Shown in pieces: positions 4,867 through 45,903 of a DNA stretch of 64,000 nucleotides. Below the pieces are notes generated by a model, which searched no databases, was not told the origin of the DNA, and worked only from the letters and a program-made list of their open reading frames with translations. Origin of the DNA: Kineococcus rhizosphaerae (GTDB lineage: Bacteria > Actinomycetota > Actinomycetes > Actinomycetales > Kineococcaceae); assembly GCF_003002055.1 (NCBI RefSeq), contig NZ_PVZF01000010.1, positions 1 through 64,000 of the forward strand, written 5' to 3'. The translations under genes and the position numbers were made by a program. The number at the start of each line of letters is the position of its first letter. The first letter of the stretch is position 1.

Positions 4867-7554
<2,688 letters not shown>

Positions 7555-40555: not shown

Positions 40556-40604
40556 TGCATCAGGACACCGGTGACACTCGATGTGTCGAGACATCGGTGA
40601 CAGT
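40556..40604 (+). repeat. Left IS-end-like sequence
   Basis: Two related motifs, CAGGACACCGGTGACA (40561-40576) and CGAGACATCGGTGACA (about 40587-40602), lie about 26 bp apart. The first matches the right end at 45811-45832 in inverted orientation. The remaining sequence from 40605 to 40894 contains a further TGTCACCACCAG motif but no gene I can support. Confidence 0.65.
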
Positions 40605-40894
40605 CGTGGACCTCAACCGGTGTCAGCTGTCACCACCAGAAGGCGCGTCGGCATCAGGTCGGCTGCTCAGCCCTCGGGAGCACCCCACCCGTGTGGACGG
40701 TGGCTCCCTGGCCGTCGATGGCCTCGTCGTGGGCGGCTGCTTGCCAGGCGTCGCCGGCGTCAGGACCGTTCTCGAGCGTCGTCGCACACGACGCCCCTGA
40801 CTGCTCGCCGTGCAACGGTGGACCGGTGCGACGAGCGCGCCAGCGAGGACGGTGACCCGACCGCGACGTCATGCTCACCGCAGGATGAGCGGGC

Positions 40895-40925
40895 GGTAGC
40901 AACAAAATTGCTACCGGGGTAGCAT
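40895..40925 (+). promoter_or_regulatory. Toxin-antitoxin operator and promoter
   Basis: GGTAGCAA and TTGCTACC (40895-40902 and 40908-40915) form a perfect 8-bp inverted repeat with a CAAAA spacer. A third half-site GGTAGCA follows at 40918-40924. The last overlaps a -10-like TAGCAT (40920-40925) exactly 6 nt before the antitoxin GTG. This is the arrangement expected for autorepression by a ribbon-helix-helix antitoxin. Confidence 0.7.
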
Positions 40926-40931
40926 CGTCGC

Positions 40932-41150
40932 GTGAAGCTCAGCATCAGCCTTTCCGAAGCCGACGTCGCTGCCCTCGACGAGCACGTCCGCGCGGCGGGC
41001 CTGCCGTCCCGGTCCGCCGCGGTGCAACGAGCCATCCAAACCCTGACCCACCAGCAGCTGGAGCAGGACTACGCCGCCGCTTGGAAGGAGTGGGACGACT
41101 CCGGGGAGCGCGAGGTGTGGGAAGGCGCCACGGCCGACGGACTCCGCTGA
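40932..41150 (+). CDS. MazE-like ribbon-helix-helix antitoxin
   Basis: A 72-residue protein. The N-terminal ribbon-helix-helix (MKLSISLSEADVAALDEHVR, then SRSAAVQRAIQTL) should bind the palindrome just upstream. The acidic C-terminus (AAWKEWDDSGEREVWEGATADG) is the type of tail that wraps around and neutralises MazF toxins. The GTG start is probably leaderless. The stop overlaps the toxin ATG. Confidence 0.9.
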   Translation: MKLSISLSEADVAALDEHVRAAGLPSRSAAVQRAIQTLTHQQLEQDYAAAWKEWDDSGEREVWEGATADGLR

Positions 41151-41497
41151 TGCGACGCGGAGAGGTCCGCCTCGTCGACTTCGACCCGGTGCGGGGCAGT
41201 GAGGCCAACAAGCGCCGTCCTGCGGTCGTGGTCAGCAACGACCAGGCCAACGCGGTCGCCGAACGCCTCGGACGGGGTGTAGTCACCGTGGTTCCGGTGA
41301 CCAGCAACACGGCCAGGGTGTTCCCCTTCCAAGTCCTGCTCGCAGCCCAGGACACCGGACTGCACGTCGACTCCAAGGCCCAGGCCGAGCAGGTCCGCGC
41401 CGTCTCGGTGGATCGACTGGGGCCGGCGCTGGGGCGGTTGCCGTTCGAGGCGCTGGACGCCCTCGACGACGCGTTGCGGCTGCACCTGGCTCTTTGA
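41150..41497 (+). CDS. MazF-family endoribonuclease toxin
   Basis: A 115-residue PemK/MazF protein: MRRGEVRLVDFDPVRGSEANKRRPAVVVSND within residues 1-31, VTVVPVTSN, FQVLLAAQDTGL, KAQAEQVRAVSVDRLG. The conserved Arg of RRPAVVVS and the Thr/Ser of PVTSN are present, so it should be an active mRNA interferase. Its ATG overlaps the antitoxin stop (ATGA), giving the usual antitoxin-first coupling. It lies near the left end of the IS-bounded segment. Confidence 0.93.
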   Translation: MRRGEVRLVDFDPVRGSEANKRRPAVVVSNDQANAVAERLGRGVVTVVPVTSNTARVFPFQVLLAAQDTGLHVDSKAQAEQVRAVSVDRLGPALGRLPFEALDALDDALRLHLAL

Positions 41498-41523
41498 CAC
41501 CGATGGCGAGAGCGGCCCTCATC

Positions 41524-41563
41524 GCGGGATGACCGTGAAGTCGCGCGGTGCGCGGGATGACCG
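41524..41563 (+). repeat. Two copies of the GCGGGATGACCG motif
   Basis: GCGGGATGACCG at 41524-41535 and 41552-41563, each followed by a similar GTGAAGT/CGAAGTT context, 28 bp apart and just after the mazF stop. Further copies at 42061, 44065-44157 and 44555 are all in the same orientation and all inside the IS-bounded segment. Confidence 0.7.
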
Positions 41564-41571
41564 CGAAGTTG

Positions 41572-41979
41572 TCACGGCTCCGAGCTCCCGTCTCCCACGT
41601 CCTGCGCCGCTGGCGTCCGCACAGAGGACATCGCCTGCCCGCCGAGCGGTACGTGAGCGGTCCAGCGGTGTGCAGGGGCTGGTCGCTGCTTGCCCTCGAT
41701 CGCGGCAAGGAGGTTGAGCAGAGCAGAACGGTCGCGCGCCAGGTCCGCCCGGTCCCCGCCGGCCTCGATGTGCGTGCGCAGGACGTCCCCGGCCACCGCG
41801 TGAGTCTGCGGGCCGAGGAGGCGGCTGGTGTGGTCCTGGATGAAGTGCAGGACCTCATCGGGTACGCCGCCTCGGGCGTAGGAGTCCTCCAGGAGCAGCC
41901 ACGCGCTGGGAGCGTCGAGGGCCTCAGCCAGGTGCCTGCCTTCGGCGGCGGCGTTCTCCAGCTCGTCATCACCGTCCAT
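41572..41979 (-). CDS. Small hypothetical protein
   Basis: A 135-residue acidic protein from the ATG at 41979, preceded by CAGGAT. It is helical throughout, with AEGRHLAEALDAPSAWLLLE and VPDEVLHFIQDHTSRLLG, and no membrane segment or known motif. Composition is closer to real protein than the opposite-strand readings, but there is no recognised family. It lies between the mazF gene and the xylanase. Confidence 0.5.
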   Translation of the reverse strand: MDGDDELENAAAEGRHLAEALDAPSAWLLLEDSYARGGVPDEVLHFIQDHTSRLLGPQTHAVAGDVLRTHIEAGGDRADLARDRSALLNLLAAIEGKQRPAPAHRWTAHVPLGGQAMSSVRTPAAQDVGDGSSEP

Positions 41980-42226
41980 CGCACGATCCTGACAGCGGCG
42001 CCGCGCACCGGGACTCATCCGCACTTCGCCATGTGTGGATGGTCGACGACGTTCTGGTCAGCGGGATGACGGTGACGTCGCCGCGTGCCTTTGTCCTGTT
42101 CAGGGGACGCGCCGTGGCTGAGCGAGCCGATGCGGCGTCGGTGATGCGCTGGCTGGCGCTGCGCCGAGCCACCCCGAACCCGACGTCCACCGCCGGTGGT
42201 GGCACGCAGCCCCCCACCCTGACCGC
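41980..42226. other. Intergenic stretch with one repeat motif
   Basis: Nothing gene-like is convincing here. It holds one variant repeat, GCGGGATGACGG, at 42061-42072. Short open readings on both strands lack a ribosome-binding site and known motifs. Confidence 0.5.
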
Positions 42227-43990
42227 TCAGGAACTGTCCGGCCCGCCACCCAGCGCTTGCCTGATTGCCTCGTACGCAGGCGTCGGGCGCCCCTCGTCGA
42301 AGAGCAAGTCGTGGCCCTGCTGCAGTTTGCCGTCTTCGTCGACCGACCAGTCGTAGCGGTCGTCCACACCCCAGGTGGTGTAGGAGACGCATGTGGGAGT
42401 GCTCAGGCAGGTGATCAGCACATCGGCGTACTGCTCCGCCTGGAGCTGCGTCCCTCGGCTGTCCGGGACGTCGTTCTCGGAGATGCGGACGTCCAGCCCG
42501 GCTGCTGCGAAGGTGTCGAGCGTCTCGGTCAGATCCTCGGGCGAGATGGCGTCGGTGTCGAGGTCGTAGATGTGGGCCTGCAGGCCCACCCCGTCGAGGT
42601 GACCTCCCCGTGCGTTGGTGTCACGCACGAGCTCGAGCAGGGCGGCCTGACGGTCACCGGGCACGTCGGCCCCGTTCTCGTTGACGAACTGCTTCACGTC
42701 GGGGTCGGCGTCGTGGACGGCTCGGGAGACGACCAGCGGGTACCCGAGCCCGAAGGTGCGGTACCAGATGTTCTCCTGGAGTTCGGTTCCTTGGTCGACG
42801 TCGAACGGCTCGTTGACGACGTCGAGCGAGGCGAGGCGTCCCTTGAAGTGCCCCACGACGGTGGTGACGTAGTCCAAGAGCGCTGCGGCGCTAGCGCGGC
42901 GATCCTGCTCGGAACCGGTGGGTAGGTCCTGCATCCAGCGGGGCATCGCCTCGGTGAAAGCGATCGTGTGCCCGTGCACGGTCATGCCTTTGCTCTGGGC
43001 CGCGGCGATGAGGGCGTCGGCCTCCTCGAAGGTGTAGACGCCCTGCTGCGGGGAGAGGTTCTGCGGCTTCATCGCGTTCTCGGGCGTGATGGCGCCGAAG
43101 TCGCCGACGAGCTCTTGTGCGTAGTCGGGGTCTGCCGCAAGTGGGCCGAGAGCCACGGCCGCCCCGATCCGGAAGCCCGGACGGGTGCGGTCAGCCAGCG
43201 CCTGCAGCCCTTCCGCTGATCGCACCACCTTGTCGAACGCGGGGCCCACGGTCCTCAGCGATCCGCCCTCCGCAGCGGTGGCGGTGAGGGAGTCGACCGA
43301 GAAGGTGCCGCTGTCGCTCGACAGTCCCAGCCAGAGTTCCCCTGACGAGAACACCCCGCCCAGAGGCATCGAAGACACTACGTGCTCGTGGCTCTCGACC
43401 TCCAGCGAGTGGCCGGAGCGACGAACCGACAGGGGGGCCTGCGGGTCGGAGAGGGTCACGTGCTCGTCGTGGACCGGGACGGGGTCGCTCACGTCCTCCT
43501 GGGGCGAGCCGTCGAAGACGATGATCTCGAGATCGTCCCCCCTGAGGGTGAGTCGTATCCCGGCCGGTTCGATCCTGAACTCGTCGGCGATCGATGGCGG
43601 GCTGTCGTAGACCGCCCAGGACGCGTCGGCGGTGGCGTCGGCGAAGACGGCGGTGAGGAGGAAGTCGCCCTGGGCCACCAGGTGGGTTCCCACCAGGTTG
43701 ACTGGCGGGTTCGGCTGGCCTCCCGTGCCGTCCTGCTCGACGATCTTCCGCCCGGTGGCCGTGACCTGCAGCTGATCGCCGTCAACCGCCACCCCCGGCA
43801 CGTGCTGCCAGCCCTGCAGGAGGTTGAGGATCACTCCGGGCTCCACTACCGGAGCGGGCGTAGGGGTCGTGCATCCCGAGAGGGCGAGCACGAGGCTCGA
43901 GGCTAGCCCGGTGAGCGCGGCCAGTGGGGGCCGGCACCGGACCCCGGGGTTTTGCGGAGCAGTCTCCAAGGTCAGAGCGGGGCGAGGCAC
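42227..43990 (-). CDS. GH10 endo-1,4-beta-xylanase-like lipoprotein
   Basis: A 587-residue secreted lipoprotein. The signal ends in the lipobox LALSGC (Cys about residue 40). Residues about 50-245 form a beta-rich region of unknown family. The GH10 catalytic domain follows: GAITPENAMKPQNLSPQQGV, MTVHGHTIAF, acid/base E394 in DVVNEPF and the presumed nucleophile E505 in RISENDV. Relative to classical GH10, the Trp of GHTLVWH is Phe and the nucleophile motif is SEND instead of TELD, so substrate preference may differ. A CAAACT hexamer 6 nt before the GTG supports this start. It would act on xylan-type polysaccharides at the cell surface. Confidence 0.88.
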   Translation of the reverse strand: MPRPALTLETAPQNPGVRCRPPLAALTGLASSLVLALSGCTTPTPAPVVEPGVILNLLQGWQHVPGVAVDGDQLQVTATGRKIVEQDGTGGQPNPPVNLVGTHLVAQGDFLLTAVFADATADASWAVYDSPPSIADEFRIEPAGIRLTLRGDDLEIIVFDGSPQEDVSDPVPVHDEHVTLSDPQAPLSVRRSGHSLEVESHEHVVSSMPLGGVFSSGELWLGLSSDSGTFSVDSLTATAAEGGSLRTVGPAFDKVVRSAEGLQALADRTRPGFRIGAAVALGPLAADPDYAQELVGDFGAITPENAMKPQNLSPQQGVYTFEEADALIAAAQSKGMTVHGHTIAFTEAMPRWMQDLPTGSEQDRRASAAALLDYVTTVVGHFKGRLASLDVVNEPFDVDQGTELQENIWYRTFGLGYPLVVSRAVHDADPDVKQFVNENGADVPGDRQAALLELVRDTNARGGHLDGVGLQAHIYDLDTDAISPEDLTETLDTFAAAGLDVRISENDVPDSRGTQLQAEQYADVLITCLSTPTCVSYTTWGVDDRYDWSVDEDGKLQQGHDLLFDEGRPTPAYEAIRQALGGGPDSS

Positions 43991-44064
43991 TCCCGCAGTT
44001 TGCTATGCCCTGCGTCGAGCAGGTGCAAGGGCAGGACGCCGTGGTATGTGCGGCCTACTGCACC

Positions 44065-44157
44065 GCGGGATGACCGTGCGCTGCGCACACCGCGGGATGA
44101 CCGTGCGCTGCGCGCACCGCGGGATGACCGTGCGCTGCGCGCACCGCGGGATGACCG
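44065..44157 (+). repeat. 27-bp tandem repeat (GCGGGATGACCG family)
   Basis: Copies begin at 44065, 44092, 44119 and 44146: three full 27-bp units of GCGGGATGACCGTGCGCTGC plus a GCACACC or GCGCACC tail, and a partial fourth. It lies between the divergent xylanase and small membrane-protein genes, in a gap (43991-44247) with no other feature apart from the xylanase -10. Confidence 0.85.
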
Positions 44158-44247
44158 GAAGGTCGCCGGCCTGCACCTTGCGGCAACTTCGAGGTGAGTG
44201 ACCGTCCCTTGCCACGCCGTGGTCCTGCGTCGTGACCGAGTGCGTGG

Positions 44248-44544
44248 ATGGCCGCTGCCCGTCACGCTGAACCAGTGGATGATCAACCGGACAGCGACCG
44301 CAGCAGGGCGCAGTCCGCCCGCTTCACCACCGTCATCGGTGCCGTCGTGTTCGTGCTCGCCCTCGTGCTTCTGCTGTTCGCGGACGACCGACGATCTCTC
44401 GTCATGAGCCTGATGCTCGTCTTCGTCAGCCTCGGTCTCGGGCTGGTCGGCTTCGCAGGGGATCGTCGTTGGGTGAAGACCATCAGCGTCGCCTCGTCCG
44501 CCCTGGCGGTCCTGCTCGCGGTCTACGGGTTCATCGCTACATGA
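44248..44544 (+). CDS. Small membrane protein
   Basis: A 98-residue protein with a hydrophilic N-terminus of 25 residues and three hydrophobic segments (about 27-45, 50-67 and 75-96). No known family is recognised. The start is weakly supported: there is no clear ribosome-binding site or -10. The stop is followed 10 bp later by a GCGGGATGACCG repeat, like the mazF gene. Confidence 0.5.
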   Translation: MAAARHAEPVDDQPDSDRSRAQSARFTTVIGAVVFVLALVLLLFADDRRSLVMSLMLVFVSLGLGLVGFAGDRRWVKTISVASSALAVLLAVYGFIAT

Positions 44545-44554
44545 CGCCCGGAGG

Positions 44555-44566
44555 GCGGGATGACCG
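44555..44566 (+). repeat. Single GCGGGATGACCG motif
   Basis: One copy just after the small membrane-protein gene, followed by GAACGTCGCTG. Partial forms (GCGGGATG) also occur near 45544 and 45765. Confidence 0.6.
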
Positions 44567-44587
44567 GAACGTCGCTGTCGGCGATGC

Positions 44588-45157
44588 TCACTCGCCGAGG
44601 TCGTCGGCCTCGTCCACCGGGGCGCGCCAGTTCCAGGCCAGGGCGGCGGCAGGCAGCATGGTCGTGGTCAGGAACGAGGCGAAGGTCAGCACCATCCAGC
44701 CCACGCTCTCGAAGAGCTGTAGGCCTGCTTCTTGTGCCAGGAAGCTGTTGAGGGCCGCGAGGACGGCCACGAGGCCCAGCAGCACCAGGGTGAGGTGGAA
44801 ACCGCGTCGGTAGGCGTGGTCGCGGTCGCTGATCTCGCGTTCATCGAGCAGGTTCTCCGGTGCCCTGTCCAGCATCCGGGTCGCGCGTCGCAGGGCGCCG
44901 ATCCCGGAACTGCCCACGACCGACGTAGCTGCTCCGAGCAGCGCAGTGTTGGTCCCGCCGCCGGCGGTGGCGGCGAGCACACCGAGGCCGAAGGTCGCCA
45001 CGGGGAGCAGGGCCAGGGTGCGGCGGGCGGTGCGGGTGGCCAGCCACGGTGGCAGCGGCTGCTGACGTTGTTCCTGGACGCGCGCTTCGGTCTGGGCGCG
45101 CAGCTGCGCGCGGCGTTGGGCGCTGCCTCGGGGGGGTCGGGTGTTGGTGGGGTTCAC
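44588..45157 (-). CDS. Membrane protein coupled to an XRE regulator
   Basis: A 189-residue protein with a basic, Gln/Arg-rich N-terminus (about 45 residues) and four hydrophobic segments (about 48-66, 67-85, 120-140 and 150-175). The GTG at 45157 overlaps the XRE stop (GTGA), so it is the second gene of a two-gene operon. No family is recognised. XRE-plus-membrane-protein pairs are common in actinobacteria, with roles mostly unknown. Confidence 0.75.
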   Translation of the reverse strand: MNPTNTRPPRGSAQRRAQLRAQTEARVQEQRQQPLPPWLATRTARRTLALLPVATFGLGVLAATAGGGTNTALLGAATSVVGSSGIGALRRATRMLDRAPENLLDEREISDRDHAYRRGFHLTLVLLGLVAVLAALNSFLAQEAGLQLFESVGWMVLTFASFLTTTMLPAAALAWNWRAPVDEADDLGE

Positions 45158-45492
45158 GTGTGCGCTCCTGCCTGGGAGGGCACCGCCGCCGCCGTGGGGG
45201 GCGTCGTGGGTGCCGTTGAGGTCGTGGGGGCGGGGTAGAGCTGCGCCGACATGGGCGGGAAAGGCGTGAGGGAGAAGATCGCTTCGACGGGCAGGCTGAA
45301 GTGGGCGGCCAGGCGCAGGGCGAGTTCGACGGAGGGGCCGTAGTCGCCGCGTTCCAGGAAGCCGATGGTCTGGACGTTGACGCCGACCGCTTCGGCCAGC
45401 TGACGGCGGGTGGTGCCGCGCTCTGTGCGCAGCACGGCGAGGCGGTTGTGCAGCTGTCTGGCGCCTGCTGGCCCTTTCGCCTTGGTACTCAC
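45154..45492 (-). CDS. XRE-family transcriptional regulator
   Basis: A 112-residue regulator. The HTH_3 domain (LHNRLAVLRTERGTTRRQLAEAVGVNVQTIGFLERGDYGPSVELALRLAAHF within about 14-65) is followed by a Pro/Thr/Ala-rich tail of about 40 residues. It probably represses its own operon through the palindrome at 45501-45518, which overlaps its -10. It is coupled to the downstream membrane protein. Confidence 0.88.
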   Translation of the reverse strand: MSTKAKGPAGARQLHNRLAVLRTERGTTRRQLAEAVGVNVQTIGFLERGDYGPSVELALRLAAHFSLPVEAIFSLTPFPPMSAQLYPAPTTSTAPTTPPTAAAVPSQAGAHT

Positions 45493-45499
45493 TCTTCCA

Positions 45500-45518
45500 A
45501 CGTTGCGTCAACGCAACG
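45500..45518 (-). promoter_or_regulatory. XRE autoregulatory operator overlapping the promoter
   Basis: CGTTGCGT-CA-ACGCAACG (45501-45518) is a perfect 8-bp inverted repeat with a 2-bp spacer. On the minus strand its inner end forms CAACGT (45500-45505), a -10-like hexamer 7 nt before the XRE GTG. Extra half-sites (AACGCAAG, CAACGC) follow at 45522-45540. The rest of the gap to 45784 shows no gene. Confidence 0.7.
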
Positions 45519-45784
45519 CGGAACGCAAGAGGAGCAACGCAGGGCGGGATGAAGTAATCCTGCATGATCTTGCGGACATCGACATGAGCGCGACGTCCGT
45601 GACCGTGACGTCGAGGCGAGTGCTGGCGAGCCGATGACGGCTCCGCCGATGCTGCTCGCCCGGCCGTACCTGTCCACCGGTGACGCCGGGCCCTGCATCA
45701 CCGCGTGCGCGTCGACCCGTGAGGGGGTCTGCGCTGCGCGTTGGTCGGCCGAGGGCAGCGGGGCGGGATGCTCCGAGGGCCGAG

Positions 45785-45832
45785 AAGTGTCACCACCACG
45801 ACCGTCGGAAGTGTCACCGATGTCCTGATGCA
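45785..45832 (-). repeat. Right IS-end-like sequence
   Basis: Two AAGTGTCACC motifs start at 45785 and 45809; the outer one continues CGATGTCCTGATGCA to 45832. On the minus strand this reads TGCATCAGGACATCGGTGACA, matching the left end at 40556-40576 with one difference. Confidence 0.65.
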
Positions 45833-45903
45833 GAACTGCCACCGACGTCGTGGGACACGGCACCCGGTTGCGCGACGACGTCCGCACCGACTTGGGTGGT
45901 CCG

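Follow-up and report, generated by a model that had tools for sequence, protein, structure and literature searches.

Directly repeated sites in Kineococcus as candidate joints of a gene-cassette system

A repeat array in the window

A 12-bp motif recurs in one orientation within an accessory segment of the window, which is the whole stretch of 64,000 nucleotides of Kineococcus rhizosphaerae DNA analysed here. The locus raises the question of whether these copies mark cassette-like units and the sites of a recombinase, as had been proposed. A motif scan recovered all eight copies of the original prediction (41524–44566) in their places and on the + strand. Seven of these are exact (41524, 41552, 44065, 44092, 44119, 44146 and 44555) and the one at 42061 carries the single change described for it. 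Seven of the eight exact copies lie within 3.1 kb, but the further remark that no copy was noticed elsewhere in the window needs correction: two degenerate copies, detected with a site profile, close the array at 40880 (GCAGGATGAGCG) and 45579 (TCGACATGAGCG), and another exact copy lies at 6435–6446 on the − strand. The latter is probably due to chance, because it sits inside coding sequence that reads like the GGMTGTA motif of SecA. With up to two mismatches allowed, the whole window showed no enrichment (31 matches against 25.1 expected; 11 of 100 shuffles reach 31). The non-chance part consists of the exact copies and their clustering, given this concentration and the 47 exact copies in the genome against none for the reversed pattern. 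The array is composed as follows, the cassettes being putative.

40880–40891, +: degenerate site GCAGGATGAGCG, upstream array end; 19.0 bits with the site profile; start of the cassette common to G005
40892–41523, both ORFs on +: cassette 1, RHH_1 antitoxin-like ORF (40932–41150) and PemK/MazF-like ORF (41150–41497); Pfam PF01402 and PF02452
41524–41535, +: site, exact motif, first of a tandem pair 28 bp apart
41552–41563, +: site, exact motif, second of the pair
41564–42060: cassette 2, 150-aa ORF (41572–42024, −) between two sites
42061–42072, +: site with one change, GCGGGATGACGG; 22.8 bits with the site profile
42073–44064: cassette 3, 587-aa glycosyl hydrolase family 10 (xylanase-like) ORF (42227–43990, −) between sites; PF00331, 214.9 bits
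44065–44157, +: four tandem sites (44065, 44092, 44119, 44146), exact motif, period 27 by repeat finding
44158–44554: cassette 4, 98-aa ORF (44248–44544, +) between sites; weak DUF6611 match under its cut-off
44555–44566, +: site, exact motif
44567–45578: cassette 5, HTH_3/HTH_31 regulator-like ORF (45154–45492, −; Pfam) and 189-aa frame (44588–45157, −)
45579–45590, +: degenerate site TCGACATGAGCG, downstream array end; 17.9 bits with the site profile

Two groups of copies do follow gene ends closely, as had been noted: the copy at 41524 lies 27 bp beyond the end of the mazF-like ORF (41497) and that at 44555 lies 11 bp beyond that of the 98-aa ORF (44544). The tandem array proper spans 44060–44157 (3.6 copies, 97% matches). 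The conserved unit exceeds the 12-bp motif and extends over about 28–30 bp, with the consensus ACCGCGCGCACCGCGGGATGACCGTGAGGTCG. Cassette 1 has a full-length partner, 87% identical, between sites in another Kineococcus species (G005 C6). Cassette 5 is matched by a 79% identical segment of K. radiotolerans over 44604–45595, which ends 16 bp beyond the degenerate site at 45579; the K. radiotolerans segment has no recognised site at that end. Cassettes 2, 3 and 4 had no partner among the Kineococcus array regions compared, and the 150-aa ORF of cassette 2 matched no Pfam family.

Distribution of the sites and the units between them

The motif is not private to this segment, contrary to what had been supposed: beyond the 47 exact copies in this genome, 32 of which fall in clusters of at least two and thus in other islands as well, K. 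radiotolerans holds 148 and another Kineococcus species 202 (reversed controls, 0 and 2). Outside the genus it occurs at background level. Three viral contigs carry one exact site each. Sites lie on one strand only in 21 of the 26 array regions scanned. At the right end of the K. radiotolerans chromosome, 113 sites were found on the + strand and none on the −, at the left end none and 13, respectively, so that every scanned array of this species points to the nearer chromosome end; in G001, + sites occupy 35–95 kb and − sites follow from about 115 kb on. Within arrays, GC skew follows the site strand; it did not place an origin or terminus in the replication-polarity check of G001 and K. radiotolerans.

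Comparison of 340 inter-site segments gave 35 full-length homologous pairs, and in 26 of the 28 pairs that could be evaluated, i.e. those with neighbours on both sides, neither neighbour was conserved. Gene-plus-motif units thus occur in other combinations, and the proposed cassette-like units are supported. All four ends lay within 20 bp of a site in 16 of 71 shared segments, as compared with none in 200 shifted controls, and 129 of 284 single ends fell at sites (control mean 9.1, maximum 21). Against clean bounding, 55 of the 71 shared segments lack sites at one or more of the four ends, and in 19 of the 35 full-length pairs the match spans under 98% of one member. For the 15 pairs that are 90% identical or more, left-end identity climbs to at least 0.93 at −2, and at the right end it drops to 0.20–0.67 from +12. 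The core was held fixed when the sites were first collected; hence, identity inside it is uninformative and the cut point is bounded only to about −3 to +11. The homologous segments form 31 families taking in 64 of the 340, the rest having no full-length partner in this set.

The units have a median size of 720 bp and usually hold one predicted gene. Predicted genes occur in both orientations (136 sense, 172 antisense) with similar site spacing, and in both the start codon lies about 160 bp from the site on the 5′ side of the gene. Clustering, one-strand polarity, site-bounded mobile units and shuffled neighbours are established by sequence comparison, on which the repeat copies read as joints between gene cassettes.

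The candidate recombinase and the proposed mechanism

The arrays harbour a XerC/D-like tyrosine recombinase, and an antisense site was found within 1.5 kb of it in all 12 Kineococcus loci (one of which also has a same-strand site); for other tyrosine recombinases the count is 4 of 40. By Pfam it consists of the core-binding and catalytic domains only (PF00589, 93.2 bits), and the four catalytic motifs (R, K, HxxR, H..Y) are all present in six of eight Kineococcus frames; of the remaining two, one is a fragment at a contig end. Its gene often lies inside the array, though sites do not delimit it cleanly at both ends. This association and polarity point to the array-resident recombinase as the likely enzyme acting on the sites. 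What counts against it is that an intact copy (at least 71% identity) is absent from 5 of the 11 Kineococcus genomes, including that of the window and that of K. radiotolerans, the latter having near-identical duplicates that indicate recent activity all the same.

Other candidates were rejected. Chromosomal XerC/D-like genes are not near sites. A 338-aa gene with a weak PF00589 match, found in 9 of the 11 Kineococcus genomes (once at 33% and once at 39% identity) and bearing Cys at the expected Tyr position in K. radiotolerans, is also present in a sister genus that lacks the sites. Serine recombinases are absent from the genome of the window and therefore cannot be the general enzyme. A plasmid origin was discarded as well, no plasmid match to the recombinase being found at E 1e-40.

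Relatives of the recombinase in many other actinobacterial genera are accompanied by a variant site, GCGGCAGATSMG. Around 74 such relatives, exact variant sites number 76 antisense and 3 sense, at a density of 0.85 per 10 kb, whereas one such genome taken as a whole has 0.025 per strand. The density peaks at 65 per 10 kb at 90–120 bp upstream of the recombinase, as compared with 1–3 further away; 25 loci, about a third, have a site within 200 bp upstream (for 72 of the 74, the available upstream sequence exceeds 150 bp), a proximity not seen in the Kineococcus loci examined. The active-site motifs are complete in 63 of the 74. Whole-genome counts of the variant are modest, with 46 copies against 23 in reversed controls in the best case and 11 against 8 and 4 against 12 in two others.

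It is quite likely that the repeat serves a gene-cassette system as its recombination site. A unit would be a self-contained gene module, small in size and flanked by two sites of about 28–30 bp in direct repeat, and the tyrosine recombinase would exchange strands inside the conserved core GCGGGATGACCG. The unit would thereby leave as a circle carrying one site and could enter the array again at any site of matching polarity; in successive rounds this would give one-strand arrays of shuffled order. The site just upstream of the recombinase gene in a third of the relatives' loci could serve as an attI-like place.

The strongest alternative, though unlikely, is that the repeats offer short homology only and that units are shuffled by RecA-dependent or single-strand-annealing recombination with no dedicated recombinase. 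It would suit the two genomes named above as lacking an intact enzyme, and tandem sites supply local homology of up to about 100 bp. K. radiotolerans is moreover radiation-resistant and has a linear chromosome, according to PMC2587704, and strong repair could drive such shuffling. Homology of this kind leaves unexplained a 28–30 bp motif with conserved arms outside the core, kept between unrelated genes, as well as the one-strand polarity; nor does it account for a different motif that shows polarity and an upstream peak next to relatives of a single recombinase family. It is very unlikely that the sites bind a regulator, or are a replication-related signal of subtelomeric genes, and that the units move otherwise: the orientation towards chromosome ends and the GC skew are as expected of strand-oriented signals, but the sites stand at the ends of homologous units and genes of both orientations lie between them. 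The ends of a small insertion element or a REP-type repeat, suggested by a dispersed and sometimes tandem short repeat, are a very unlikely reading, as there is no hairpin, no inverted orientation inside clusters and no internal sequence common to the segments.

Comparison with integrons and Xer/dif modules

The arrays share much with integrons of the sedentary chromosomal type (IntI, attI, attC): a tyrosine recombinase, mostly one-gene units separated by directly repeated sites and shuffled, a possible counterpart of attI beside the recombinase, and arrays that lack a recombinase, like CALIN. Gene units bounded by directly repeated sites, by which integrons are recognised, are present here. 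This layout would also fit true integrons missed by the standard models, which is very unlikely. None of the 11 Kineococcus genomes has an integron integrase above the TIGR02249 cut-off (all 11 have matches, to generic tyrosine recombinases); the array recombinase reaches 54.3 bits against a cut-off of 265 and scores higher with XerC and XerD. Aligned to XerD (1a0p), it has no IntI-specific insertion between the first and second active-site boxes. The attC core is GTTRRRY, from which GCGGGATGACCG differs, and neither strand of the sites of about 28–30 bp showed an attC-like hairpin signal (mean z of about −0.3 for each, equal to the downstream control; −65 to +20 and −20 to +25 at 120 of 321 solitary Kineococcus sites, taken together). 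The arrays further differ from integrons in that genes lie in both orientations, with the spacing of about 160 bp on their 5′ side, and in that the recombinase gene often lies inside. The putative cassette system thus appears to work like an integron but is not one.

With Xer/dif (pdif) modules, the system shares a Xer-like simple tyrosine recombinase, gene modules between sites and a core site of about 28 bp that allows an 11-6-11 reading. In pdif modules of Acinetobacter plasmids the sites alternate in orientation, whereas here they are direct repeats of one polarity inside clusters. The site sequence appears to be unlike dif, and scanning stretches of G001 and G007 for a dif-like pattern, a weak test, yielded no candidate. 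The array-resident enzyme differs from the chromosomal XerC/D enzymes of the genomes that carry it. Its two-domain composition is that of the simple tyrosine recombinases in the part of a published classification consulted (PMC8138268), where the integron-like subgroup is the one linked with gene cassettes and no cassette-linked actinobacterial subgroup is mentioned.

On balance, we favour the view that Actinobacteria have an integron analogue of their own, evolved apart from IntI/attC, in which a XerC/D-derived recombinase and short double-stranded direct sites (GCGG-NNNN-type cores, genus-specific, e.g. GCGGGATGACCG and GCGGCAGATSMG) capture and shuffle self-promoted cassettes; an attI-like site would precede the recombinase gene. 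Classic integrons are scarcely known from this phylum, and the analogue would account for that. Among the titles and abstract openings listed from an open-access library, preprints aside, none described such arrays. If this is true, the phylum shuffles cassettes with a different enzyme and site, invisible to integron finders, and the Kineococcus analogue has built superintegron-sized arrays pointing to linear chromosome ends. The system would supply small adaptive genes, such as the toxin-antitoxin pair and the xylanase-like enzyme seen here, and would offer a new case against which the evolution of cassette capture can be compared. Its recombinase, if a simple double-strand enzyme with genus-specific sites, might be used as a tool.

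A minority of the Kineococcus sites have a CATCG/GACCGCGACGTCGC element 35–50 bp before the core. The word TGCCGATGAGCG/CGCTCATCGGCA, as in this upstream element, recurs in other genera and may be a second half-site.

The window array and the distribution of its repeat

Between 41524 and 44566, seven exact copies of GCGGGATGACCG and one copy with a single change lie on the plus strand, as originally noticed; one further exact copy, not noticed at first, lies on the minus strand at 6435, within a SecA-like coding sequence, and is probably a chance occurrence. With a profile made from array sites, degenerate copies at 40880 and 45579 were recognised, which close the array.

Units within the 40880-45579 array of the window
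Unit 1: RHH/MazF-like toxin-antitoxin pair
Unit 2: 150-aa unknown protein
Unit 3: GH10 xylanase-like enzyme
Unit 4: 98-aa protein with a sub-threshold DUF6611 match
Unit 5: HTH regulator and a second frame

Repeats on either side of the array (40556-40610 and 45784-45849) also occur beside sites in further array regions (G0C21, G6C18, G7_4225). They resemble IS481-type ends, and insertion elements may therefore move whole array pieces.

Contrary to what had been supposed, the repeat is not private to this segment. Counted across the genome and its other islands, it has 47 exact copies (16 plus, 31 minus; reversed control, 0), of which 32 sit in six clusters of at least two copies, each on a single strand. 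The other 15 are solitary, several of them within coding sequence.

Clusters of exact copies in the window genome, by contig (one strand per cluster)
C4:3.2-12.4 kb: 13 copies
C5:331 kb: 4 copies
C10:41-45 kb: 7 copies
C10:103-105 kb: 2 copies
C13:133-135 kb: 3 copies
C19:24.6-25.0 kb: 3 copies

Exact copies number 148 in K. radiotolerans and 202 in another Kineococcus genome. In a survey of 59 genomes, in which a longer pattern with up to two mismatches was used, ten of the 11 Kineococcus genomes had 9 to 113 copies, the remaining one (G009) had 2, and the 48 genomes from outside Kineococcus had 0 to 6. When one mismatch was allowed in 394 genomes of the class, 22 copies were counted in the window genome and at most 2 in every other.

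Within each of 26 regions scanned, nearly all sites lie on a single strand; five regions have sites on both strands or a lone site, the window being counted among them for its chance copy. Sites stand in tandem at 26-29 bp in 66 of 471 cases. The K. radiotolerans SRS30216 chromosome is given in its description as linear, with 4,761,183 bp (PMC2587704). Its right end (206 kb) has 113 plus and no minus sites, whereas its left end has no plus and 13 minus sites; the arrays of this chromosome (G007:C2) are directed toward both ends. Two facing sets, at 35-95 kb and 115-420 kb, are seen in G001:C1, and array direction in both genomes may reflect the direction of replication. In the array regions sampled (L078-L080, L093-L095, L081-L082, L275-L278), G+C is 0.68-0.73, below most chromosome samples, and the sign of the GC skew tracks the site strand.

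Mobility and layout of the units

The array regions were compared by blastn, and 71 of the 157 alignments reaching 150 bp were retained (at least 80% identity and 200 bp, no self-overlap, no end farther than 2.5 kb from a site). In 16 of these 71, each of the four ends lay 20 bp or less from a site, against none in 200 shifted-site controls; of single ends, 129 of 284 lay that close (control mean 9.1, maximum 21).

Cutting 30 regions at their sites yielded 340 segments, 150-4000 bp long with a median of 720 bp; in 35 pairs the homology covered more than 80% of each member. In the 15 pairs with at least 90% identity, agreement extends right of the left-site core and left of the right-site core, and the outside bases match only to the extent of the conserved arms. 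The joint lies between about -3 and +11, the cut being bounded rather than placed because the cores had been selected for likeness. Gene-plus-motif units do occur in other combinations, as 26 of the 28 pairs having neighbours at both sides have neither neighbour in common. The mazEF unit of the window (40881-41525) has an 87% partner in G005, likewise between sites; the partner of the last window unit, with 79% identity, is in K. radiotolerans, and just one of its ends there is near a recognised site. In K. radiotolerans, an 812-bp unit is present at three places with 98-99% identity.

Genes were predicted with a simple codon-based caller in 333 segments, 176 of which have one gene and 102 none; 136 genes run along the site strand and 172 opposite. 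In either orientation, the median distance to the site on the respective side is about 160 bp for the start codon and 50-60 bp for the stop, which suggests that the units carry their own promoters.

The array recombinase and its relation to integrons

A tyrosine recombinase resides in the arrays (315 aa in G006), and relatives with 71-94% identity, whole or broken, were found in 6 of the 11 Kineococcus genomes. None at that identity was found in the window genome, G004, G005, G007 or G009, although a relative with 42% identity is present in G009, and K. radiotolerans has, on another contig, a decayed fragment (39% identity over 90 residues). K. radiotolerans, G005 and the window genome have arrays, with duplicates that look recent, yet lack the enzyme; recent loss, an unrecognised enzyme or supply in trans may account for this. 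An opposite-strand site lies within 1.5 kb of the array recombinase in 12 of 12 loci, one of which also has a same-strand site. For other tyrosine recombinases the figure is a site at 4 of 40 loci, and some of those 40 come from array-less genomes. The 12 array loci are related, hence non-independent. Between the 12 loci the gene alone is common, and the contexts differ. A gene starting SVHVFVDETKA stands divergently beside the recombinase in three loci (L142, L143, L153) and alone in one unit of G005.

The array system is predicted to work like an integron. A true integron identity was rejected on three defining tests: the system does not match the integrase model, the recombinase lacks the catalytic insertion of the integrase, and the sites, unlike the folded sites of integrons, have no folding signal. 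The best match of the enzyme is XerC/D-like, under every curated cut-off, and its closest PDB match is XerD. IntegronFinder 2.0 is reported to find no complete integron in Actinobacteria (PMC9024848), and no description of such an arrangement came up in searches of the open-access literature.

As for other tyrosine recombinases, G007 and G008 each have only one PF00589 gene that scores over 100 bits (G007:C2:3861219, L116; G008:C1:511199, L118), which is XerD-like and whose C-terminus is odd; G000, G005, G006 and G009 have two each. Two K. radiotolerans loci are listed as XerC/XerD in PMC2587704; the pair may be dispensable for a linear chromosome. The tyrosine-recombinase-like gene at G007:C2:318473 (L132/L179) is conserved across most Kineococcus and in the sister genus; its K. 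radiotolerans version has a Cys at the expected position of the catalytic Tyr.

Relatives and variant sites in other genera

Relatives of the recombinase numbered 212 when one genome per species was scanned, and the best 80 of them correspond to 79 loci; 74 of these lie outside Kineococcus (73 labelled actinobacteria, one Acidobacteria MAG). A related motif is common to dispersed repeats at these loci, where it keeps the same relative strand. After masking of the recombinase (898,167 bp), ATCTGCCGC had 95 occurrences on the recombinase strand and 7 on the opposite one (5 on each for the reversed control) and was present in 49 of the 74 loci; for TGCCGATGAGCG, with one mismatch allowed, the counts were 66 and 15 (control, 4 and 0). 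Exact GCGGCAGATSMG, in site orientation, is found 76 times antisense and 3 times sense to the recombinase. It occurs within 200 bp upstream of the recombinase match in 25 of the 74 loci, and its density peaks 90-120 bp upstream of the match start (65 per 10 kb vs 1-3 beyond 1 kb), a peak owed partly to tandem copies in loci L195 and L228.

Whole-genome counts of variant sites are modest in eight such genomes, the best being 46 against 23 controls, while two others had 11 (controls, 8) and 4 (controls, 12). One Micromonospora contig has eight exact variant sites on a single strand over 15 kb. In some Micromonosporaceae recombinase copies, shared homology starts 7 bp or less from the upstream site and runs past the gene, ending where no recognised site was found. 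Loci L221 and L224 share a 2.3 kb segment (95.5%), and in each locus it ends at a distance of 6 bp from a site.
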